From assembly GCA_015654835.1 (NCBI GenBank), contig JAATGG010000104.1, positions 1 through 39,491 of the forward strand: a stretch of 39,491 nt of DNA, read 5' to 3'. The stretch comes from Terriglobales bacterium (GTDB lineage: Bacteria > Acidobacteriota > Terriglobia > Terriglobales > Acidobacteriaceae). Within the stretch, counting starts at the first letter, position 1. Every line of letters starts with the position of its first letter. Below, piece by piece: positions 2,655-9,553 of this stretch. The position numbers and the translations under genes were made by a program. The notes under the pieces were generated by a model. It was not told the origin of the DNA, made no database searches, and saw only the letters and a program-made list of their open reading frames with translations.

Positions 2655-3236
2655 TTAACGGATGACTTCGAATTTTTCCCAGGCACAATTGCAGACCGGG
2701 CAGCGCTCGGCTTCGGGCTCTTCAGACGTGTAGCCGCAGGCTGGACACACGTAGAAATCGCGGGCTGCGGCGACCCATGAGTCGGCCTTGCCGCCTTCAA
2801 CCAGCGCAATGGCCTCGCTGTAGAGGCGCGCGTGCGTCTTCTCGGCTTCCAGAGCCCAATTGAAGGTGCGCATGGCCGCGGTGTTGTCGTGGGTCTTGGC
2901 TTCTTCAAGAAATTCTGGATACATGGAGTCGATCTCATATTGCTCGCCACCGAGGGCGGTCTTGAGATTTTCGAGTGTGCTTTTGGTTTCGACCGCGTGA
3001 ATCTCCGCGTGGGCTTCGCCGCCCAACTGCCGGATTACACGGGCATGATTGCTGGCGTGGATCTGCTCGGCGCGGGCCGCGGCACGAAACAGGCTGGCGG
3101 CTCCATGCAGTTTGTCGGCGTCCGCCTTTACCGCAAACGCAGTGTATTTGGCGTGCGCATTCGATTCGCCTTCAAAGGCCGCCAAAAGATTTTTGACGGT
3201 GAGGGCGTTTCCCTGGGCTATTTCGTGAACTGGCAT
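2655..3236 (-). CDS. Rubrerythrin
   Basis: A 193-residue cytoplasmic non-haem iron protein that reduces hydrogen peroxide in anaerobes and microaerophiles. The N-terminal ferritin-like four-helix domain (about residues 10-150) has the di-iron carboxylate/histidine motifs: E22/E24 in FEGES, AEQIH near 56-60 and AEKTH near 131-135. The C-terminal rubredoxin domain has CPAC (C164, C167) and CPVC (C179, C182) to bind one iron. The order ferritin-like then rubredoxin and the length are those of classical rubrerythrin. A strong GGAGGA Shine-Dalgarno sits 6 bp before the ATG at 3236. It appears monocistronic. Its presence matches the oxygen-sensitive ferredoxin and hydrogenase enzymes elsewhere in the window. 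Confidence 0.95.
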   Translation of the reverse strand: MPVHEIAQGNALTVKNLLAAFEGESNAHAKYTAFAVKADADKLHGAASLFRAAARAEQIHASNHARVIRQLGGEAHAEIHAVETKSTLENLKTALGGEQYEIDSMYPEFLEEAKTHDNTAAMRTFNWALEAEKTHARLYSEAIALVEGGKADSWVAAARDFYVCPACGYTSEEPEAERCPVCNCAWEKFEVIR

Positions 3237-3317: not shown

Positions 3318-3680
3318 CTAAGGCTTTGAAGGCGCGGTTGCCACATTCCGCGAGTAACGAATGACTTCTACGGCAGAGGTTGCCACCAGACCTTCTTCAA
3401 CCATGTTGTCGAGGAAGGGAATCAGCCTGCCGATCTGCTCCTCGGTGTCGATGATGCTTAACTGGATCGGCGCGTCTTTCGAGAAGGTCCAATGGCCGGA
3501 ACGGCGAATCCGGCTGCCCGTTCCGTAGCCCTCGATGCCGCGGAAGACAACGGCATCGGCCATGCCCAGTTCCTTGCATTTAGCTAGAATTGCCTCATGC
3601 AGGGGCTTGCCCTGCCACCGGTCGTCTTCGCCAAAGTGGACCCGCACCATGCGAGCAGAAAACTCCTGTTTCATGCTCAA
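3318..3680 (-). CDS. DUF190 PII-like protein (single domain)
   Basis: A 120-residue protein with one DUF190 domain, a PII/GlnB-like ferredoxin-fold family whose ligand and target are not established. Typical blocks are VRVHFGEDDRWQGKPLHEAI near the start, FRGIEGYG in the middle, IQLSIIDTEEQI, and the terminal MVEEGL...VIRY. A GGAGG sequence precedes the ATG. It is the third gene of the crcB operon, 8 bp after the tandem DUF190 gene. PII-like proteins normally form trimers and usually sense small molecules. From its position under the fluoride riboswitch I infer a role in fluoride stress or in modulating CrcB, but nothing in the sequence proves that. It is closest in sequence to the second half of its neighbour. 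Confidence 0.85.
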   Translation of the reverse strand: MSMKQEFSARMVRVHFGEDDRWQGKPLHEAILAKCKELGMADAVVFRGIEGYGTGSRIRRSGHWTFSKDAPIQLSIIDTEEQIGRLIPFLDNMVEEGLVATSAVEVIRYSRNVATAPSKP

Positions 3681-3688
3681 GCCTCCAC

Positions 3689-4438
3689 TTATTCCAGAGT
3701 AGCCGCGGGCGGTGACGGCAGCCCTTCCGCATCCGCTCCGTGCGCGCGATAAGCATACTTGATGATGTCCACCTCGGAGAATACCACCAAACCTTCCTCG
3801 ACCATCCGCTCGACAAGGGGCAGGAAGGTGCGCAGCTTTTCAGCCGTATCGATTGCCGAGAGCATGATCGAATCGCCATGCGGAGAAGCTACCGGCTTGT
3901 CTTTGTGAAACCGTCCGTGCGCCCCGTAGCCCAGAATGCCGCGATAGACGGTGACCCCGGCAATGTCATTGGCCCGCATCGCCTCGACCAGAGCCGTGTA
4001 GAGCGGCTTATCTTGCCAGCGGTCTTCTTCGCTCACGTAGATGCGCATCATCTGCGCTTTGCCTTCCATCTTGAAGCGCGCAGGCGCCGGGAGAGCGTCT
4101 GGCTTTGAGATCTGTGCAGGCTTGGCTACTGTCGTTTCCTGCATTTCGATCAGGCCGGTTCCACATAGTTCCTGCAACTTGCCGAGCAGCTCATCCACCT
4201 TCTCGCGTGTCTCGATGAACTCGACCTTGAGGGGAAGGTGATCCGAGATATCCACCATGCTGGCGGAGTGCATGTGGTGGTCGGCGCCGAATCCGGCGAT
4301 GCCCTTCGTGACCGTCGCACCCGAGACGCCTCGATAGAAAAGGAAGTCGAGGATGCTTGTGTAAACGGCGGCCCCGTGGTGGGTGGCTCCCTCGCTTAGA
4401 TAAATGGTGACCTTGACTGCTTTGCCCGCGTTCAACAT
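3689..4438 (-). CDS. Tandem DUF190 protein (two PII-like domains)
   Basis: A 249-residue protein made of two DUF190 domains in series. Domain 1 (about residues 3-100) starts KVTIYLSEGATHHG and has TKGIAGFG. A linker (about 100-130, Pro/Ala-rich) leads to domain 2 (about 135-240), which starts RIYVSEEDRWQDKPLY and has YRGILGYG. Start: the frame stays open to 4552, inside crcB, but the ATG at 4438 has GGAGGA just upstream and opens directly on the domain, so 4438 is used. Domain 1 is the divergent copy; domain 2 resembles the single-domain protein encoded next. It is 67 bp after crcB and shares its transcript. Function is unknown beyond membership of the PII-like family; the fluoride link rests on operon context. 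Confidence 0.83.
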   Translation of the reverse strand: MLNAGKAVKVTIYLSEGATHHGAAVYTSILDFLFYRGVSGATVTKGIAGFGADHHMHSASMVDISDHLPLKVEFIETREKVDELLGKLQELCGTGLIEMQETTVAKPAQISKPDALPAPARFKMEGKAQMMRIYVSEEDRWQDKPLYTALVEAMRANDIAGVTVYRGILGYGAHGRFHKDKPVASPHGDSIMLSAIDTAEKLRTFLPLVERMVEEGLVVFSEVDIIKYAYRAHGADAEGLPSPPAATLE

Positions 4439-4505
4439 GATTCCTCCAGAAAGGGAAGCAGGATTGTAGTTCAGCTCTTGTCCATCCGGTAGATGCTCGC
4501 GACTT

Positions 4506-4883
4506 TCAGGAGATGGCCTCGGCCAGCATCGAACCGCCCCATACGGCCGCAAGGCCCAGCACGAAGCTGGTCACGGCATAGAGTCCCGCAAGCAAAAACG
4601 CTCCTGTCCGCAAGGTCGCAAGCGTTTCCCACTCGTAAGTTGAAAATGTACTGTAGGCGCCGATAAAACCGATAGGAATCAGAAATCGCCAGGCAGGATT
4701 AAGTTCCGCTCGCCGGCTCATATAGGTAAGCGAAAAACCGATAAGCACACATGCCGTGATGTTGACCACCAGCGTGGCATAGGGAAAGCGAATTCCCATT
4801 CGCCCGGCAATCGTCGAGCCCACCCAATACCGGGCCATGGAACCCAGTGCGCCGCCCACAGCGATCAGAAGATATTTATGCAA
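4506..4883 (-). CDS. crcB: Fluoride exporter CrcB (Fluc channel)
   Basis: A 125-residue four-helix inner-membrane protein of the CrcB/Fluc family, which exports fluoride as a dual-topology dimer. Signature blocks are GALGSMARY near the N-terminus, TLVVN in helix 2, and GFIGAYSTFSTYEWE in helix 3, matching the conserved phenylalanine/threonine/serine track. Start: a TTG at 4883 preceded by GAGGGGA is preferred over an upstream TTG at 4913, because MHKYLLIAVGG is the usual beginning. A fluoride riboswitch and a good promoter lie upstream, and two DUF190 genes lie downstream. The rare TTG start may keep basal translation low. Assignment is strong: family motifs and riboswitch agree. Confidence 0.95.
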   Translation of the reverse strand: MHKYLLIAVGGALGSMARYWVGSTIAGRMGIRFPYATLVVNITACVLIGFSLTYMSRRAELNPAWRFLIPIGFIGAYSTFSTYEWETLATLRTGAFLLAGLYAVTSFVLGLAAVWGGSMLAEAIS

Positions 4884-4891
4884 CGATCTTC

Positions 4892-5042
4892 TCCCCTCGT
4901 GCAAGTTATACAACCAACAAAGGTGCAGCCTTGCGCGAAGGCAAAGCCAAGCACAAACAGCACATAAGAGTCGGCAGACTCATGCGCTCAAGTTGTATTC
5001 GAGGGGATTACGCCGGGACATAACTCCGCGACAGGATCCCCT
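4892..5042 (-). promoter_or_regulatory. Candidate expression platform of the fluoride riboswitch
   Basis: Read on the minus strand, leader element ATCCCCTCG (5008-5000) can pair over 8 bp with CGAGGGGA (4899-4892), which is the crcB Shine-Dalgarno region. The same element can instead pair over 7 bp with AGGGGAT (5042-5036), directly after the aptamer. The two pairings exclude each other, which suggests control of translation initiation. The complementarity is seen in the sequence; the switching model is inference. Confidence 0.5.
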
Positions 5043-5106
5043 GCCAGGAGTCATCATCTGTCCGGATTAGAGCGGGACAGCGGTTAACGGTGAACTCCAT
5101 CACCGC
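5043..5106 (-). promoter_or_regulatory. Fluoride riboswitch (crcB motif aptamer)
   Basis: On the minus strand the RNA starts GGTGATGGAGTTCACC (5104-5089). P1 is GGTG/CACC, followed by the conserved AACCGC. A second stem is CTGTCC (5080-5075) with GGACAG (5063-5058). Conserved GATGA follows, then ACTCC (5051-5047), which is complementary to GGAGT (5098-5094) in the first loop and forms the pseudoknot. All three helices of the known fluoride aptamer are present. It lies 160 bp upstream of crcB and about 15 bp after a sigma-70 promoter. Confidence 0.95.
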
Positions 5107-5119
5107 ACGTAACACTTTT

Positions 5120-5148
5120 ATTACACCGCTGTCTGCCGAGCCTGTCAA
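5120..5148 (-). promoter_or_regulatory. crcB: Sigma-70 promoter of the crcB operon
   Basis: On the minus strand there is a perfect -35 TTGACA (5148-5143), a 17-bp spacer and a -10 TGTAAT (5125-5120, 5 of 6). Transcription would begin near 5113, just before the riboswitch aptamer. The promoter lies only 20 bp after the stop of the upstream ABC-F gene, so read-through from it is also possible. Confidence 0.85.
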
Positions 5149-5167: not shown

Positions 5168-6766
5168 TTAGTTGTGCTTGCCCTTCCACTCCACATAGGG
5201 GCCGTTGAAATCTTCGATCCCGTCTTCTTTAAAGTTCCAAAGCCGCGTCGCAACCTCGTCGATCAGGTCGTGATCGTGCGTAACCAGCAGCACTGTGCCT
5301 TCATAGCGCTGCAAGGCGATGTTGAGCGCATTGATCGACTCAAGATCGAGATGGTTGGTCGGCTCATCGAAGATCAGGAAGTTGGGCTTGGTGAGAATCA
5401 GCTTGCAGAACACCAGACGGGCCTGTTCGCCGCCGGAGAGCGCCTTGGTCGGCTTCTGGCCTTCCTCGCCGGAGAAAAGCATTTGCCCGAGAATGCCGCG
5501 AATCTCCTCGACCGTAGCTTTGGGGTCGAACTGGTGCAGCCACTCGGCCACTGTGAGGCCATGCTCGATGGTGGCGCCGATGTCCTGAGGAAAATACCCG
5601 ATCTGCGCTTCGTGGCCCCAGAAGACTTCGCCGGCGTCGAGCGTGAATTCCTTGTCTGCCAGCCCGGGATAGTTGGCCAACAGGCTCTTTACGACGGTAG
5701 TTTTACCGGCGCCGTTGCGGCCCATCAGACAGATCTTTTCGCCGCGCAGCACGCTGGCGGTGAAGTCGTCTACGACGTGCAGGTCGCTATAGTGCTTGGT
5801 CAGGCCCTTGAACTCCAGCACATGTTTGCCGCTGGGACGCACCTGATCGAAGCGAATGTAGGGCCGTTGAATGTTGGAACGAGCCAAGTCGTTGGTCTGC
5901 AACCGCTCTACCTCTTTGCGGCGGCTGGTTACCTGCGTCGAACGCGTACCGGCGGCAAAGCGCGCGATGAACTCGTTCAACTGCGCAATCTTTTTCTCGC
6001 GCTGGGCGTTTTGCGACTCCAGTGTGGAGCGCACCTGGGTCTTGGCCATCACCATTTCGTCGTAGCCGCCGGTGTAGATGATGATCGTCTGATAGTCGAT
6101 GTCGGCGGTGTGGGTGGTGACGCTGTTCAAGAAGTGCCGATCATGCGAAATCGCGATCAGCGTGCCATCGTAGTTGAGCAGGAAGTCCTGCAGCCAGTGA
6201 ACGGAGTCCAAATCGAGATAGTTGGTGGGCTCGTCGAGCATCAGCGCTTCGGGTTTGCCGAACAGGGCCTGCGCCAGCAGGACGCGGATCTTCTGGCCGC
6301 TCTGTAACTCGCCCATCTTGCGCTCGTGAAAATCATCGGTAATATCCAGGCCTTGCAGCAGCACGGCGGCATCGCTTTCGGCGGTATAGCCGTCCTCGTC
6401 ACCGATGATGCCTTCCAACTCGCCCAGCCTCATGCCATCTTCATTGGTCATTTCAGGCTTTTCGTAGATGCGGTCGCGTTCTTCAAGAGCCGCCCAGAGC
6501 GGGGCGTTGCCCATGATGACCGTGTCGATCACGCGATAGCTGTCGAATGCAAACTGGTCCTGGCGCAGGATGCCCAGCTTTCGCGGGCGAACGACCGTGC
6601 CTTTTTGCGGTTCCAGTTCCCCGGTCAGGATTTTCATGAACGTGGATTTGCCCGCACCATTCGGTCCGGTGAGACCGTAGCGCCGGCCCGGCGTAAACGT
6701 GGTACTTACATCCTCGAAGAGCACCTTCGAGCCATAGCGCATGGTGACATTGCTGACACTGATCAT
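5168..6766 (-). CDS. ybiT: ABC-F ATPase, YbiT/EttA type
   Basis: A 532-residue soluble protein with two ABC ATPase domains and no membrane segment. ABC-F proteins act on the ribosome as translation factors. Domain 1 has Walker A GPNGAGKST (about 35-43) and Walker B LMLDEPTNYLD. The inter-domain linker (about 240-320) carries the charged helical region of the P-site tRNA interaction motif. Domain 2 has Walker A GRNGAGKTT, signature LSGGEQAR and Walker B LIFDEPTNHLD, each followed by an H-switch (ISHDRHF, VTHDHD). Length and the N-terminal block (VTMRYGSKVLFEDVS) fit the YbiT subgroup rather than EttA or Uup. It is probably monocistronic. The antisense strand has a long open frame that is only a shadow of this gene. 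Confidence 0.92.
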   Translation of the reverse strand: MISVSNVTMRYGSKVLFEDVSTTFTPGRRYGLTGPNGAGKSTFMKILTGELEPQKGTVVRPRKLGILRQDQFAFDSYRVIDTVIMGNAPLWAALEERDRIYEKPEMTNEDGMRLGELEGIIGDEDGYTAESDAAVLLQGLDITDDFHERKMGELQSGQKIRVLLAQALFGKPEALMLDEPTNYLDLDSVHWLQDFLLNYDGTLIAISHDRHFLNSVTTHTADIDYQTIIIYTGGYDEMVMAKTQVRSTLESQNAQREKKIAQLNEFIARFAAGTRSTQVTSRRKEVERLQTNDLARSNIQRPYIRFDQVRPSGKHVLEFKGLTKHYSDLHVVDDFTASVLRGEKICLMGRNGAGKTTVVKSLLANYPGLADKEFTLDAGEVFWGHEAQIGYFPQDIGATIEHGLTVAEWLHQFDPKATVEEIRGILGQMLFSGEEGQKPTKALSGGEQARLVFCKLILTKPNFLIFDEPTNHLDLESINALNIALQRYEGTVLLVTHDHDLIDEVATRLWNFKEDGIEDFNGPYVEWKGKHN

Positions 6767-7008
6767 TCTTTTTGTGTTCCTTAACGCGGGCCGCAGCGGG
6801 GTATCGGCTCAGCCGGGCCGGGGCAAACTGAGGGTTGAGACAAGATTTTGGGGCACGCGCACGCGTGCAGCCCCTGAGAACTGCACTTCTAGTTTCTCAT
6901 AAGCCAGGGTCAGCAGCCCACTTGTCCTGTTCTGATACAGAAATGGCCACAGGAGGGCGATTTTAAGGGTTTTTGGTTACCATCGGTACTCAAAGGTACC
7001 CTCTTTTT

Positions 7009-7527
7009 ATGCGAGGGCCGAAAAAACCGCAGATATACTCGGGGCATTGGCCCTCTACTTGCAGTTTTTCATTTCCCCGCAGAGGTGTAACCATCGACCC
7101 ACAGTCTACAAAAACAAACTGGAAATCGATCGCCCCGCCACCTGATGACGTGGAACGTCGCGTACATCGCCGATTAAAATGTAACGGTACTGGAGAAATT
7201 CGTATATTTCCGGAGGGAATCAAGGTCGTCGGCGCTGTTGTCGACCTGAGTCTCAATGGATGTTGTTTGGAATTCGATAGCGCTGTCCCTGCTCATGTAA
7301 ATACACGTGTGGAGATCTATTTGAATGTGAAAGGCATCACCCTCCAATTGGCGGGTGAGATTCGCCATTTGCAAACAAGGGGTCAAGCAGGCATCGAATT
7401 CATCGACGTAAGCAGGCGCAAAGCGGAACAAATTCAAGAATTGATTCACGAACTCTACGAGCTGGAACAGAACTTCCCCAAGGAAGCCCCATCCGGTCTT
7501 TCTGCCAGCCCTGTTTATCGCAATTAA
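7009..7527 (+). CDS. PilZ-domain protein (c-di-GMP receptor candidate)
   Basis: About 172 residues; the PilZ domain spans roughly the last 120. It holds the two c-di-GMP-binding motifs: RRVHRR (RxxxR) and DLSLNG (D/NxSxxG), about 35 residues later, followed by the beta-barrel (LQLAGEIRHLQ, AGIEFID). A C-terminal helix (KAEQIQELIHELYELEQ) could mediate contacts. The N-terminal 50 residues have no recognisable domain. The start is uncertain: ATG 7009 has no clear Shine-Dalgarno, TTG 6973 is an alternative, and initiation further in, close to the domain, is possible. It is a single-domain receptor whose partner cannot be told from neighbours (a divergent ABC-F gene and convergent feoB). Confidence 0.85.
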   Translation: MRGPKKPQIYSGHWPSTCSFSFPRRGVTIDPQSTKTNWKSIAPPPDDVERRVHRRLKCNGTGEIRIFPEGIKVVGAVVDLSLNGCCLEFDSAVPAHVNTRVEIYLNVKGITLQLAGEIRHLQTRGQAGIEFIDVSRRKAEQIQELIHELYELEQNFPKEAPSGLSASPVYRN

Positions 7528-7533
7528 ACTCAC

Positions 7534-7558
7534 CCGGTGCAATGGCTAAAGGCACCGG
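7534..7558. terminator. Possible terminator hairpin after the PilZ gene
   Basis: The 7-bp stem CCGGTGC (7534-7540) / GCACCGG (7552-7558) starts 6 bp after the stop codon. The following sequence is A-rich rather than T-rich, so termination is uncertain. Confidence 0.35.
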
Positions 7559-7591
7559 AAAACCAATCATGCAATGAAGAGAGGGTCTGGG

Positions 7592-7621
7592 TGGACAGCA
7601 ATCAGTCATGGTTGCTGTCCA
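7592..7621. terminator. Hairpin between convergent PilZ and feoB genes
   Basis: The 10-bp stem TGGACAGCAA (7592-7601) / TTGCTGTCCA (7612-7621) lies 22 bp after the feoB stop on the minus strand. It has no T-run on either side, so it is a stabilising or weak terminating hairpin. Confidence 0.4.
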
Positions 7622-7642
7622 TACTCATTTCAGGAACAGTAA

Positions 7643-9553
7643 TTACCCGACGATTGCCGTCACGATGTGGTTCACCGCAAAGGCGGCAATGTAGGCGAGC
7701 ATCAGCATGTAGGCGAATTGAATTGCCGGCCACTTCCAGCCATTGGTTTCGCGGCGGACCACCGCGATGGTCGAAGTGCACTGCAACGCGAAGGCGAAGA
7801 AAATCATTAGTGCCAGTGCGCCGCCCAACGTCATGTCGTGCCCCAGTGCGGTTTGCAGACTCAAGGATTGGGTCCCTGGGTCCGATCCGTAGAGCGTGCC
7901 CATGGTGCTGACCATGACCTCGCGCGCGGCTATGCTCGAGAGCAGTCCGATGCCAATCTTCCAGTTGAAGCCCAGGGGCGCAATGACCGGCTCGATGAAG
8001 TGGCCCAGGCGGCCGATCAGGCTATTGGCAAGATCCGGCGCAGCGATCACTCCGCCCGCCGTATGGATCACCGGCAGATGTGCCAGAACCCATAGCGCCA
8101 AGGTGACGCACAGAATTACCGTGCCTGCGTTGTGCAGAAATACATGCGCACGATCGACGACGCGCATCGTAATCGCGCGTAGAGTCGGCATCCGGTATTG
8201 CGGCAGTTCGAGGATGAACGGCGTCTCGCTCGACCTGAGGATGGAACTTTTCAGCAGCCGTGCCGTGGCAAGCGCAGCCACAAAGCCCGCTACATACAGC
8301 CCCAGCATGACGATTGTACGAAGCCCGAGAAAACCGTGCAGGTAACTGCGATTGGGAATGAATGCGGCGATGAGCAGCATGTAGACCGGCAACCGCGCCG
8401 AGCAGGTCATGAAGGGAGTCACCAGGATTGTGGCGAAGCGGTCGCGCTTGTTCTCGATGGTGCGGGTTGCCATAATCGCGGGAACCGCACAGGCATACGC
8501 TGAAAGCAGGGGAATGAAGGCCTTGCCGTTCAAGCCAATCGAACGCATGACACGGTCGGCGATGAGGGCGGCGCGGGCGAGATAGCCCGAATCTTCAAGC
8601 ACACCGATGAAAAGAAAGAGCAGCAGAATCTGCGGCAGAAAGACCAATACGGACGAAATGCCTTTCCAGGCTCCGTCGAGTATCAGGGATTGCAGCCAGC
8701 CGGCAGGCAGCAGGGGCCGGACCAACTCGCCGATGCGCGCCAGAATATCGCCGAGGCCGTCGGAAAGCGGCTGCCCGATGGAGAAGACGACTTCGAAAAC
8801 ACCGACCACGACTGCCAGAAAGAGCAGCGGGCCCCAGATGCGATGCAAAAGTATGTTGTCGAGCTTGCGGCTGCCTTGTGCCGAGAGGGGGGCGCGATAG
8901 CCCGTGCGCCGGCTTACCTGAGCAGCCCAGGTGTGTGCACTGGCCGCGTTGCCCAGCACGGGCAGCGTCAGAGGATGTGCGGCGGTTTGCTGCGACTGCT
9001 GGTTGAGAAACAGCCTTACCGCGTCCAGACCGGTTCCATGGGTGGCGCTGATCAGGGCTACGGCAGCGCCCAATTCCCTGGCTAGCCCGAGCGCATCGAC
9101 CTTGCCGCCACGGGATTCCATCAGATCGCTCATGTTGAGCAAAACCAGCGTGGGCAACCCTAAGGCCAGCACAGGTGCCGCCAGCATCAGCTGCCGCGTC
9201 AGGTGCTGGGAGTCGAGGACCAACAGCACTGCGTCCGGAGCCGGGGTGCCTGGCATTTTGCCGCGCAGTACATCGACGGCTACGCGGGCATCTTCGGAGT
9301 AAGGGGTAAGGCTGTAGACACCGGGCAGGTCGATGAGGGTCAGGTCGTCACGGCCTACGCCCGCCATCAGGCCCATGCGTTGTTCGACGGTTACACCGGG
9401 ATAGTTCGCGACCTTTTGACGTAATCCAGTAAGGCGATTGAAAAGGGTGGATTTCCCAGCGTTCGGAGGACCGATGAGGACTATGGTACTTAGTTTGCCG
9501 TCGGAGGGGGGGGGAGGGGGGGTAAAGGTTGGAGGAGCGCAGCAACTGCTCAT
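7643..9553 (-). CDS. feoB: Ferrous iron transporter FeoB
   Basis: A 636-residue inner-membrane Fe(II) transporter. The N-terminal G-protein domain has G1 GPPNAGKST (28-36) and G3 DLPG (in LIDLPGVYSLTPYSEDA). The membrane domain follows from about residue 240, with Gate repeats and the conserved cysteines in YACAVPAIMA, TCSARLPVYM and ALQCTSTIAVV. It is shorter than the 700-770 residues of many FeoB proteins, with a compact G-domain spacer. The start overlaps feoA by 4 bp (ATGA). Codons 7-17 contain C9 and C7 runs coding for a Pro-rich N-terminus, unlike the normal family beginning and potentially slippery. Its iron would feed the many Fe-S enzymes nearby. Confidence 0.95.
   Translation of the reverse strand: MSSCCAPPTFTPPPPPSDGKLSTIVLIGPPNAGKSTLFNRLTGLRQKVANYPGVTVEQRMGLMAGVGRDDLTLIDLPGVYSLTPYSEDARVAVDVLRGKMPGTPAPDAVLLVLDSQHLTRQLMLAAPVLALGLPTLVLLNMSDLMESRGGKVDALGLARELGAAVALISATHGTGLDAVRLFLNQQSQQTAAHPLTLPVLGNAASAHTWAAQVSRRTGYRAPLSAQGSRKLDNILLHRIWGPLLFLAVVVGVFEVVFSIGQPLSDGLGDILARIGELVRPLLPAGWLQSLILDGAWKGISSVLVFLPQILLLFLFIGVLEDSGYLARAALIADRVMRSIGLNGKAFIPLLSAYACAVPAIMATRTIENKRDRFATILVTPFMTCSARLPVYMLLIAAFIPNRSYLHGFLGLRTIVMLGLYVAGFVAALATARLLKSSILRSSETPFILELPQYRMPTLRAITMRVVDRAHVFLHNAGTVILCVTLALWVLAHLPVIHTAGGVIAAPDLANSLIGRLGHFIEPVIAPLGFNWKIGIGLLSSIAAREVMVSTMGTLYGSDPGTQSLSLQTALGHDMTLGGALALMIFFAFALQCTSTIAVVRRETNGWKWPAIQFAYMLMLAYIAAFAVNHIVTAIVG
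9506..9522. repeat. G9-A-G7 homopolymer tract inside the feoB start
   Basis: On the plus strand a run of nine G (9506-9514), one A and seven G (9516-9522) lies within the first 20 codons of feoB. On the feoB mRNA these are C-runs coding for a short proline stretch. Such tracts are prone to replication slippage and to sequencing error. Confidence 0.85.

Follow-up and report, generated by a model that had tools for sequence, protein, structure and literature searches.

A tandem and a single PII-like DUF190 protein, encoded behind a fluoride riboswitch and crcB, as candidate regulators of fluoride export in Acidobacteriota

To our knowledge, DUF190 is a widespread family without a function, though two structures have been solved. 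In a Terriglobales bacterium, the 39,491-nt stretch of DNA analysed here (contig JAATGG010000104.1; the window) places three domains of this family behind a fluoride riboswitch and the fluoride exporter gene crcB, two of them in a tandem protein (D1 and D2) and one in a single-domain protein (D3), which raises the question of what a PII-like set divided in this way does beside an exporter. The PII superfamily is known for homotrimers, so that a conserved set with three positions would be unusual within it. We favour the reading, to which we give about an even chance of being right, that the locus is a fluoride-inducible operon in which D1-D2 and D3 constitute a dedicated PII-like sensor and regulator of fluoride export, most likely as a 1:1 pseudo-threefold heterotrimer.

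The layout listed in an earlier note on this DNA was recovered in full; along the minus strand lie, in order, a promoter, a fluoride aptamer complete with its helices, crcB, the tandem DUF190 gene and the single DUF190 gene (Table 1). That note had also taken the single transcript as something seen. What is seen is a shared strand and short gaps (67 nt from crcB to the tandem gene, 14 nt from the tandem to the single gene), and from these we infer that promoter, riboswitch, crcB and the two DUF190 genes are one transcript. A rubrerythrin gene (window 2655-3236, same strand, 81 nt past the single DUF190 gene) was considered as a further operon member and rejected; only 2 of the relatives searched have such a gene.

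The promoter is the sole match of its quality within the window, where 0.03 are expected by chance, and, judged from its position, transcription should begin at or near the first base of the aptamer; a generic promoter scanner passed over it because of the G at position 2 of the -10 box. Every helix of the aptamer aligned to the RF01734 covariance model, and an own-clade model (R1) gave it 56.4 bits, with the window among that model's 22 training sequences. A candidate anti-aptamer hairpin re-uses the CTCC strand of the aptamer. Across 18 aligned leaders, 90.6% of its cells were paired, versus 24-47% in slid versions, yet its covariation was no better than in shuffles, and for this reason it is called a candidate only; it has no U-run. 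A stem in which CCCCTCG would pair with CGAGGGG, sequestering the Shine-Dalgarno sequence of the window leader, was rejected, as it was absent from the folds of relatives.

Table 1. Positions of the features of the window and of the loci compared with it (rows without a locus name refer to the window)
Feature	Position	Strand	Evidence or description
Sigma-70 type promoter, TTGACA-N17-TGTAAT	5148..5120	(-)	11/12 consensus bases
Fluoride riboswitch aptamer	5113..5038	(-)	RF01734, 43.2 bits vs gathering score 34
Candidate anti-aptamer hairpin (expression platform)	5020..5054	(-)	RNAfold and 18 aligned leaders
crcB, fluoride exporter, 125 aa, TTG start	4883..4506	(-)	TIGR00494, PF02537
Tandem DUF190 (PII-like) protein, 249 aa	4438..3689	(-)	two PF02641 stretches, E 1.1e-56
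Tandem domain D1, GIAGFG type, without E-x-D-x-W / PLYE motif	4414..4127	(-)	PF02641, 93 bits
Tandem domain D2, GILGYG type	4051..3764	(-)	PF02641, 100.9 bits
Single DUF190 protein, 118 aa, domain D3, GIEGYG type	3674..3318	(-)	PF02641, E 5.3e-30
Dynamin-family GTPase, examples	L162:1883-3979, 6087-7871; L120:6021-7901; L184:6063-7718; L144:1916-3982; L156:6072-7928
Conserved protein of ~204 aa, CxxC-type cysteines	L162:4372-4983		between crcB and tandem
Fluoride riboswitch, then Na+/H+ exchanger and universal stress protein	L142:2782-4478		upstream of crcB and DUF190 set
DUF190 gene directly after fluoride riboswitch	L080 (G242:C706) 3807-4218		no intervening crcB
CLC channel-family plus DUF190-like fusions	L190:778-2559; L191:1230-2975; L192:1201-2988		L190 and L191 directly after fluoride riboswitch
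DUF190-CBS fusions	L193:457-1776; L194; L197; L198

The crcB product scored above the TIGR00494 equivalog cut-off (105.5 vs 80.45 bits). D1, D2 and D3 (103.8 bits for D3) each pass the PF02641 gathering score of 23.4 bits, and in sequence comparison with the solved chains of PH1503 (2dcl) and TM0021 (1o51) every domain was a clear member of the family, with E down to 1e-19; the tandem also exceeded, weakly, the cut-off of the P-II family PF00543 (33.9 vs 25 bits). The source genome contains exactly one RF01734 match, one CRCB match and three DUF190 domains, all at this locus, and exactly three DUF190 domains were likewise counted in several relatives carrying a tandem and a single gene, a correspondence that supports their acting as one regulatory set.

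AlphaFold models were obtained for the window tandem and for a linked D1-D2-D3 chain, the latter being locus L112 with its TAG stop read as Q, a modelling device that carries no biological claim. In both models every domain has the beta-alpha-beta-beta-alpha-beta ferredoxin-like PII fold, with a low-confidence loop joining strands 2 and 3. The closest structural matches of D2 were PH1503 (Z 14.2) and TM0021 (Z 13.1), then CPII and SbtB (Z ~10), and chains of SbtA-SbtB transporter complexes were among them; a PII fold with such matches supports a regulatory role. Confidence in how the domains are arranged was low, both for the linked chain (pTM 0.42; pLDDT 63) and for the tandem (pTM 0.48; pLDDT 70), so that neither model predicts the arrangement; this was noted on the negative side for the heterotrimer, yet the models speak neither for nor against a trimer. 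In the linked chain the alignment over D3 was shallow because MAFFT set single-domain rows on the wrong domain.

Is the association of these genes particular to one genome? In a survey of 297 genomes of the phylum, matches to RF01734 (100 genomes), DUF190 (99) and CRCB (151) were joined by their coordinates; 81 of 105 DUF190 clusters have a crcB gene upstream on their own strand, no more than 1.5 kb from the cluster start, and, counted from the other side, DUF190 follows 81 of the 150 crcB genes listed. This adjacency supports a role in fluoride export. The DUF190 sets in the survey vary, most being one single-domain gene; a tandem with a single was present in G273, G086 and G203, and a tandem only in G192, G143, G245 and G054.

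The tandem form was then sought with an alignment of four tandems against the contigs of 85,000 species genomes, and the best 80 of 158 loci were kept; since these were picked by their tandem, they show how often a single lies beside a tandem and not how frequent tandems are (the window is an extra, minus-strand entry). All 80 belong to Acidobacteriota. Tandem and single occur together in 76 of the best 80, in the order crcB-tandem-single in 66, plus one more in which the single is in two pieces. The four loci without a single include two that stop at a contig edge. The earlier note had suggested a survey of genomes for fluoride riboswitches followed by DUF190 genes; when the same strand was scanned within 4.5 kb by a covariance model trained on 22 aptamers, a riboswitch was found upstream in 62 of these best 80 loci, in 26 of them directly before crcB or the tandem. 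Both the pairing of tandem with single and the riboswitch counts support a fluoride-responsive regulator, as does the locus where a riboswitch stands straight before DUF190 without crcB (Table 1). That about eighty related species share the trio suggests a control protein dedicated to fluoride export and so far undescribed. Counted against this account are nine of the best 80 loci in which tandem and single have no crcB in reach, several of them coming after a Na+/H+ exchanger.

Other genes accompany these loci. Among the best 80 of the 158, a Na+/H+ exchanger occurs in 23 and a universal stress protein (Usp) in 21, and at one locus both follow a fluoride riboswitch ahead of crcB and the DUF190 set. 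At about 42 of the same 80 loci, the crcB/DUF190 set is flanked on its own strand by genes for dynamin-family GTPases, several of them behind a fluoride riboswitch; no paper in the literature searched joins dynamin with a fluoride riboswitch. The ~204-aa protein with CxxC-type cysteines, encoded between crcB and the tandem, recurs in 20 of the best 80 loci and gave no match in Pfam.

A tree of 294 DUF190 domains, built with a fast method, resolved three groups with clade supports of 0.76-0.92: a pure D2 clade with 83 of the 88 D2 domains, a pure D3 clade with 74 of the 78 D3 domains, and a third clade in which 85 of the 90 D1 domains are joined by eight single-domain proteins. Per-position consensus agreed with this division, D1 carrying GIAGFG and lacking the E-x-D-x-W and PLYE motifs, D2 GILGYG and D3 GIEGYG. 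Three orthologous clades with motifs of their own indicate that each domain keeps a distinct role, and they support a regulator with three different positions. Some sets do not conform. G086 has a reversed gene order and a third domain that does not group with the D3 clade, and neither the D1 nor the D2 clade takes in the tandems of G143, G245, G054, Listeria and Alicyclobacillus; judged by these sequences, multi-domain DUF190 sets probably arose more than once.

If each domain has its own role, the chains could still assemble apart from one another, three tandems forming a two-layer stack of D1 and D2 trimers and D3 a homotrimer of its own, with the regulatory function kept. Each kind of chain does exist without the other: Acidipila rosea and G192 have a tandem without an above-cut-off single, loci L069-L071 and the independent tandems on Listeria and Alicyclobacillus plasmids have no neighbouring single, and eight relatives carry a D1-type single alone, which, since the eight single-domain proteins in its clade are D1-like, implies that D1 can work alone. 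We consider such separate homo-oligomers possible and rather unlikely, because tandem and single are kept together at 76 of the best 80 loci, D3 persists as a distinct clade alongside the tandem, and a three-domain protein exists as one chain. The latter is a 359-aa protein of a Mycobacterium branderi plasmid with three DUF190 stretches; its gene adjoins that of enolase, a glycolytic enzyme inhibited by fluoride, and the occurrence of such a chain in that position supports a three-domain regulator. A search of plasmids for more three-domain DUF190 chains yielded none besides this one. The suggestion in the earlier note that the two chains build one 2+1 complex thus gains from the co-occurrence, the clades and the natural three-domain chain, and loses any obligatory character through the two tandem-only genomes and the lone D1-type singles, which were also counted against the heterotrimeric regulator that we favour. 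The 2+1 complex is plausible and unproven.

Further fusions point in the same direction as the three clades and the three-domain chain. Voltage_CLC proteins with a C-terminal DUF190-like domain were found in G103, G217 and Acidipila rosea (26.4, 22.6 and 18.4 bits, respectively, against the cut-off of 23.4, so that one passes and two fall below), and in G103 and G217 the fusion gene begins directly after a fluoride riboswitch. In four genomes of one family in the phylum, CBS domains come after a DUF190 domain, and crcB lies upstream; the one such protein scanned with Pfam has four CBS stretches. For adenyl-nucleotide binding in the cleft between subunits, this fusion is no more than suggestive. 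Both architectures support a regulator of fluoride export, and the proposed tie of DUF190 to fluoride transport emerges strengthened by crcB adjacency together with the CLC fusions.

The CBS fusions can also be taken otherwise, namely that DUF190 proteins make no contact with a transporter and act in the cytosol, where they bind nucleotides or some other metabolite, or turn these over, protecting metabolism or signalling stress under fluoride. The enolase gene beside the three-domain protein and the crcB-less loci with Na+/H+ exchanger, Usp and dynamin genes would fit such a role, as would the ATPase/ADPase activity reported for the PII-like protein SbtB (PMC10991534). With crcB overwhelmingly the commonest neighbour of DUF190, and with DUF190 fused to CLC, the other class of fluoride exporter, we hold a purely cytosolic role to be improbable, if worth keeping in mind.

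Neighbours of the crcB/DUF190 type recur on plasmids in other phyla; on Listeria plasmids a fluoride riboswitch precedes a tandem DUF190 gene, two crcB genes, enolase and an antiporter, and such a plasmid operon has been described by way of its riboswitch and two CrcB proteins (PMC9484302). This, recurrence across families, the three orthologous clades with strongly conserved motifs and the fusion to a CLC exporter make it very improbable that the DUF190 genes are passengers, merely co-transcribed with crcB and with neutral duplicates as extra copies, even if the literature searched reports no fluoride phenotype of DUF190. As partners of the fluoride exporter, tandem and single form a set that is real and conserved widely, and that seems not to have been described before.

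For the regulator that we favour, a sequence of events can be proposed. Fluoride would stabilise the aptamer and block the candidate anti-aptamer hairpin, allowing transcription to finish or translation to proceed; CrcB would then be made together with the DUF190 proteins and would export fluoride. D1, D2 and D3 would assemble as a PII-type trimer, most likely from one tandem and one single, with non-identical ligand clefts; the trimer would sense adenyl nucleotides in the manner of SbtB and CPII and adjust fluoride export by acting on the exporter or on a partner transporter. We infer the heterotrimer, the nucleotide binding and the action on a transporter alike; what the data show are the gene set and its recurrence, the orthology of the three domains, their fold and the fusions. 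PII proteins being trimeric, their symmetry does not match that of dimeric CrcB or of CLC, so that a plug of the GlnK/AmtB type does not fit simply; with three different domains, exact threefold symmetry might no longer be required. It is conceivable, though we think it doubtful, that the fluoride-induced heterotrimer of a two-domain and a one-domain chain reads the energy state and gates dimeric CrcB directly, its three different domains solving the mismatch of threefold and twofold symmetry. If true, fluoride export would for the first time be seen under post-translational control, and the DUF190 family would gain a function. More generally, DUF190 is tied to fluoride export by its gene neighbours, by control through a riboswitch and by its fusion to another class of exporter, which makes its function directly testable.

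Compared with known systems, the locus shares promoter, aptamer and crcB with crcB-type RF01734 operons, and its relatives share the Na+/H+ exchangers that PMC11139923 reports. In that 2024 review the functions associated with the riboswitch are exporters, Na+/H+ antiporters and formate hydrogen lyase; DUF190 is named neither there nor in the discovery paper (PMC2864571), and no paper in the literature searched, outside which most subscription journals lie, joins DUF190/COG1993 with fluoride or crcB. How the activity of fluoride export is regulated is one of the topics that the review leaves to future research, and the DUF190 set is a candidate for that regulation. PH1503 and TM0021 (DUF190/COG1993/PF02641) resemble the window domains in sequence and fold (Z 13-14 for D2), but are single-domain proteins without an assigned function, whereas the window has three diverged domains as 2+1 behind a fluoride riboswitch. 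Canonical GlnB/GlnK belong to PF00543, while the window tandem is far better described by PF02641. The GlnK gene adjoins that of AmtB, the transporter that GlnK controls, and DUF190 likewise lies beside crcB, where gene neighbourhood and the CLC fusions are what suggests control. SbtB, which regulates bicarbonate transport by SbtA, and CPII have a fold in common with D2 (Z ~10), and with SbtB, as at this locus, the gene of a PII-like protein has that of an anion transporter as its partner; the chains of SbtB and CPII are single-domain, of ~100 residues, whereas the window set comprises three non-identical domains with a putative ligand and a putative partner, CrcB, that is a dimer.
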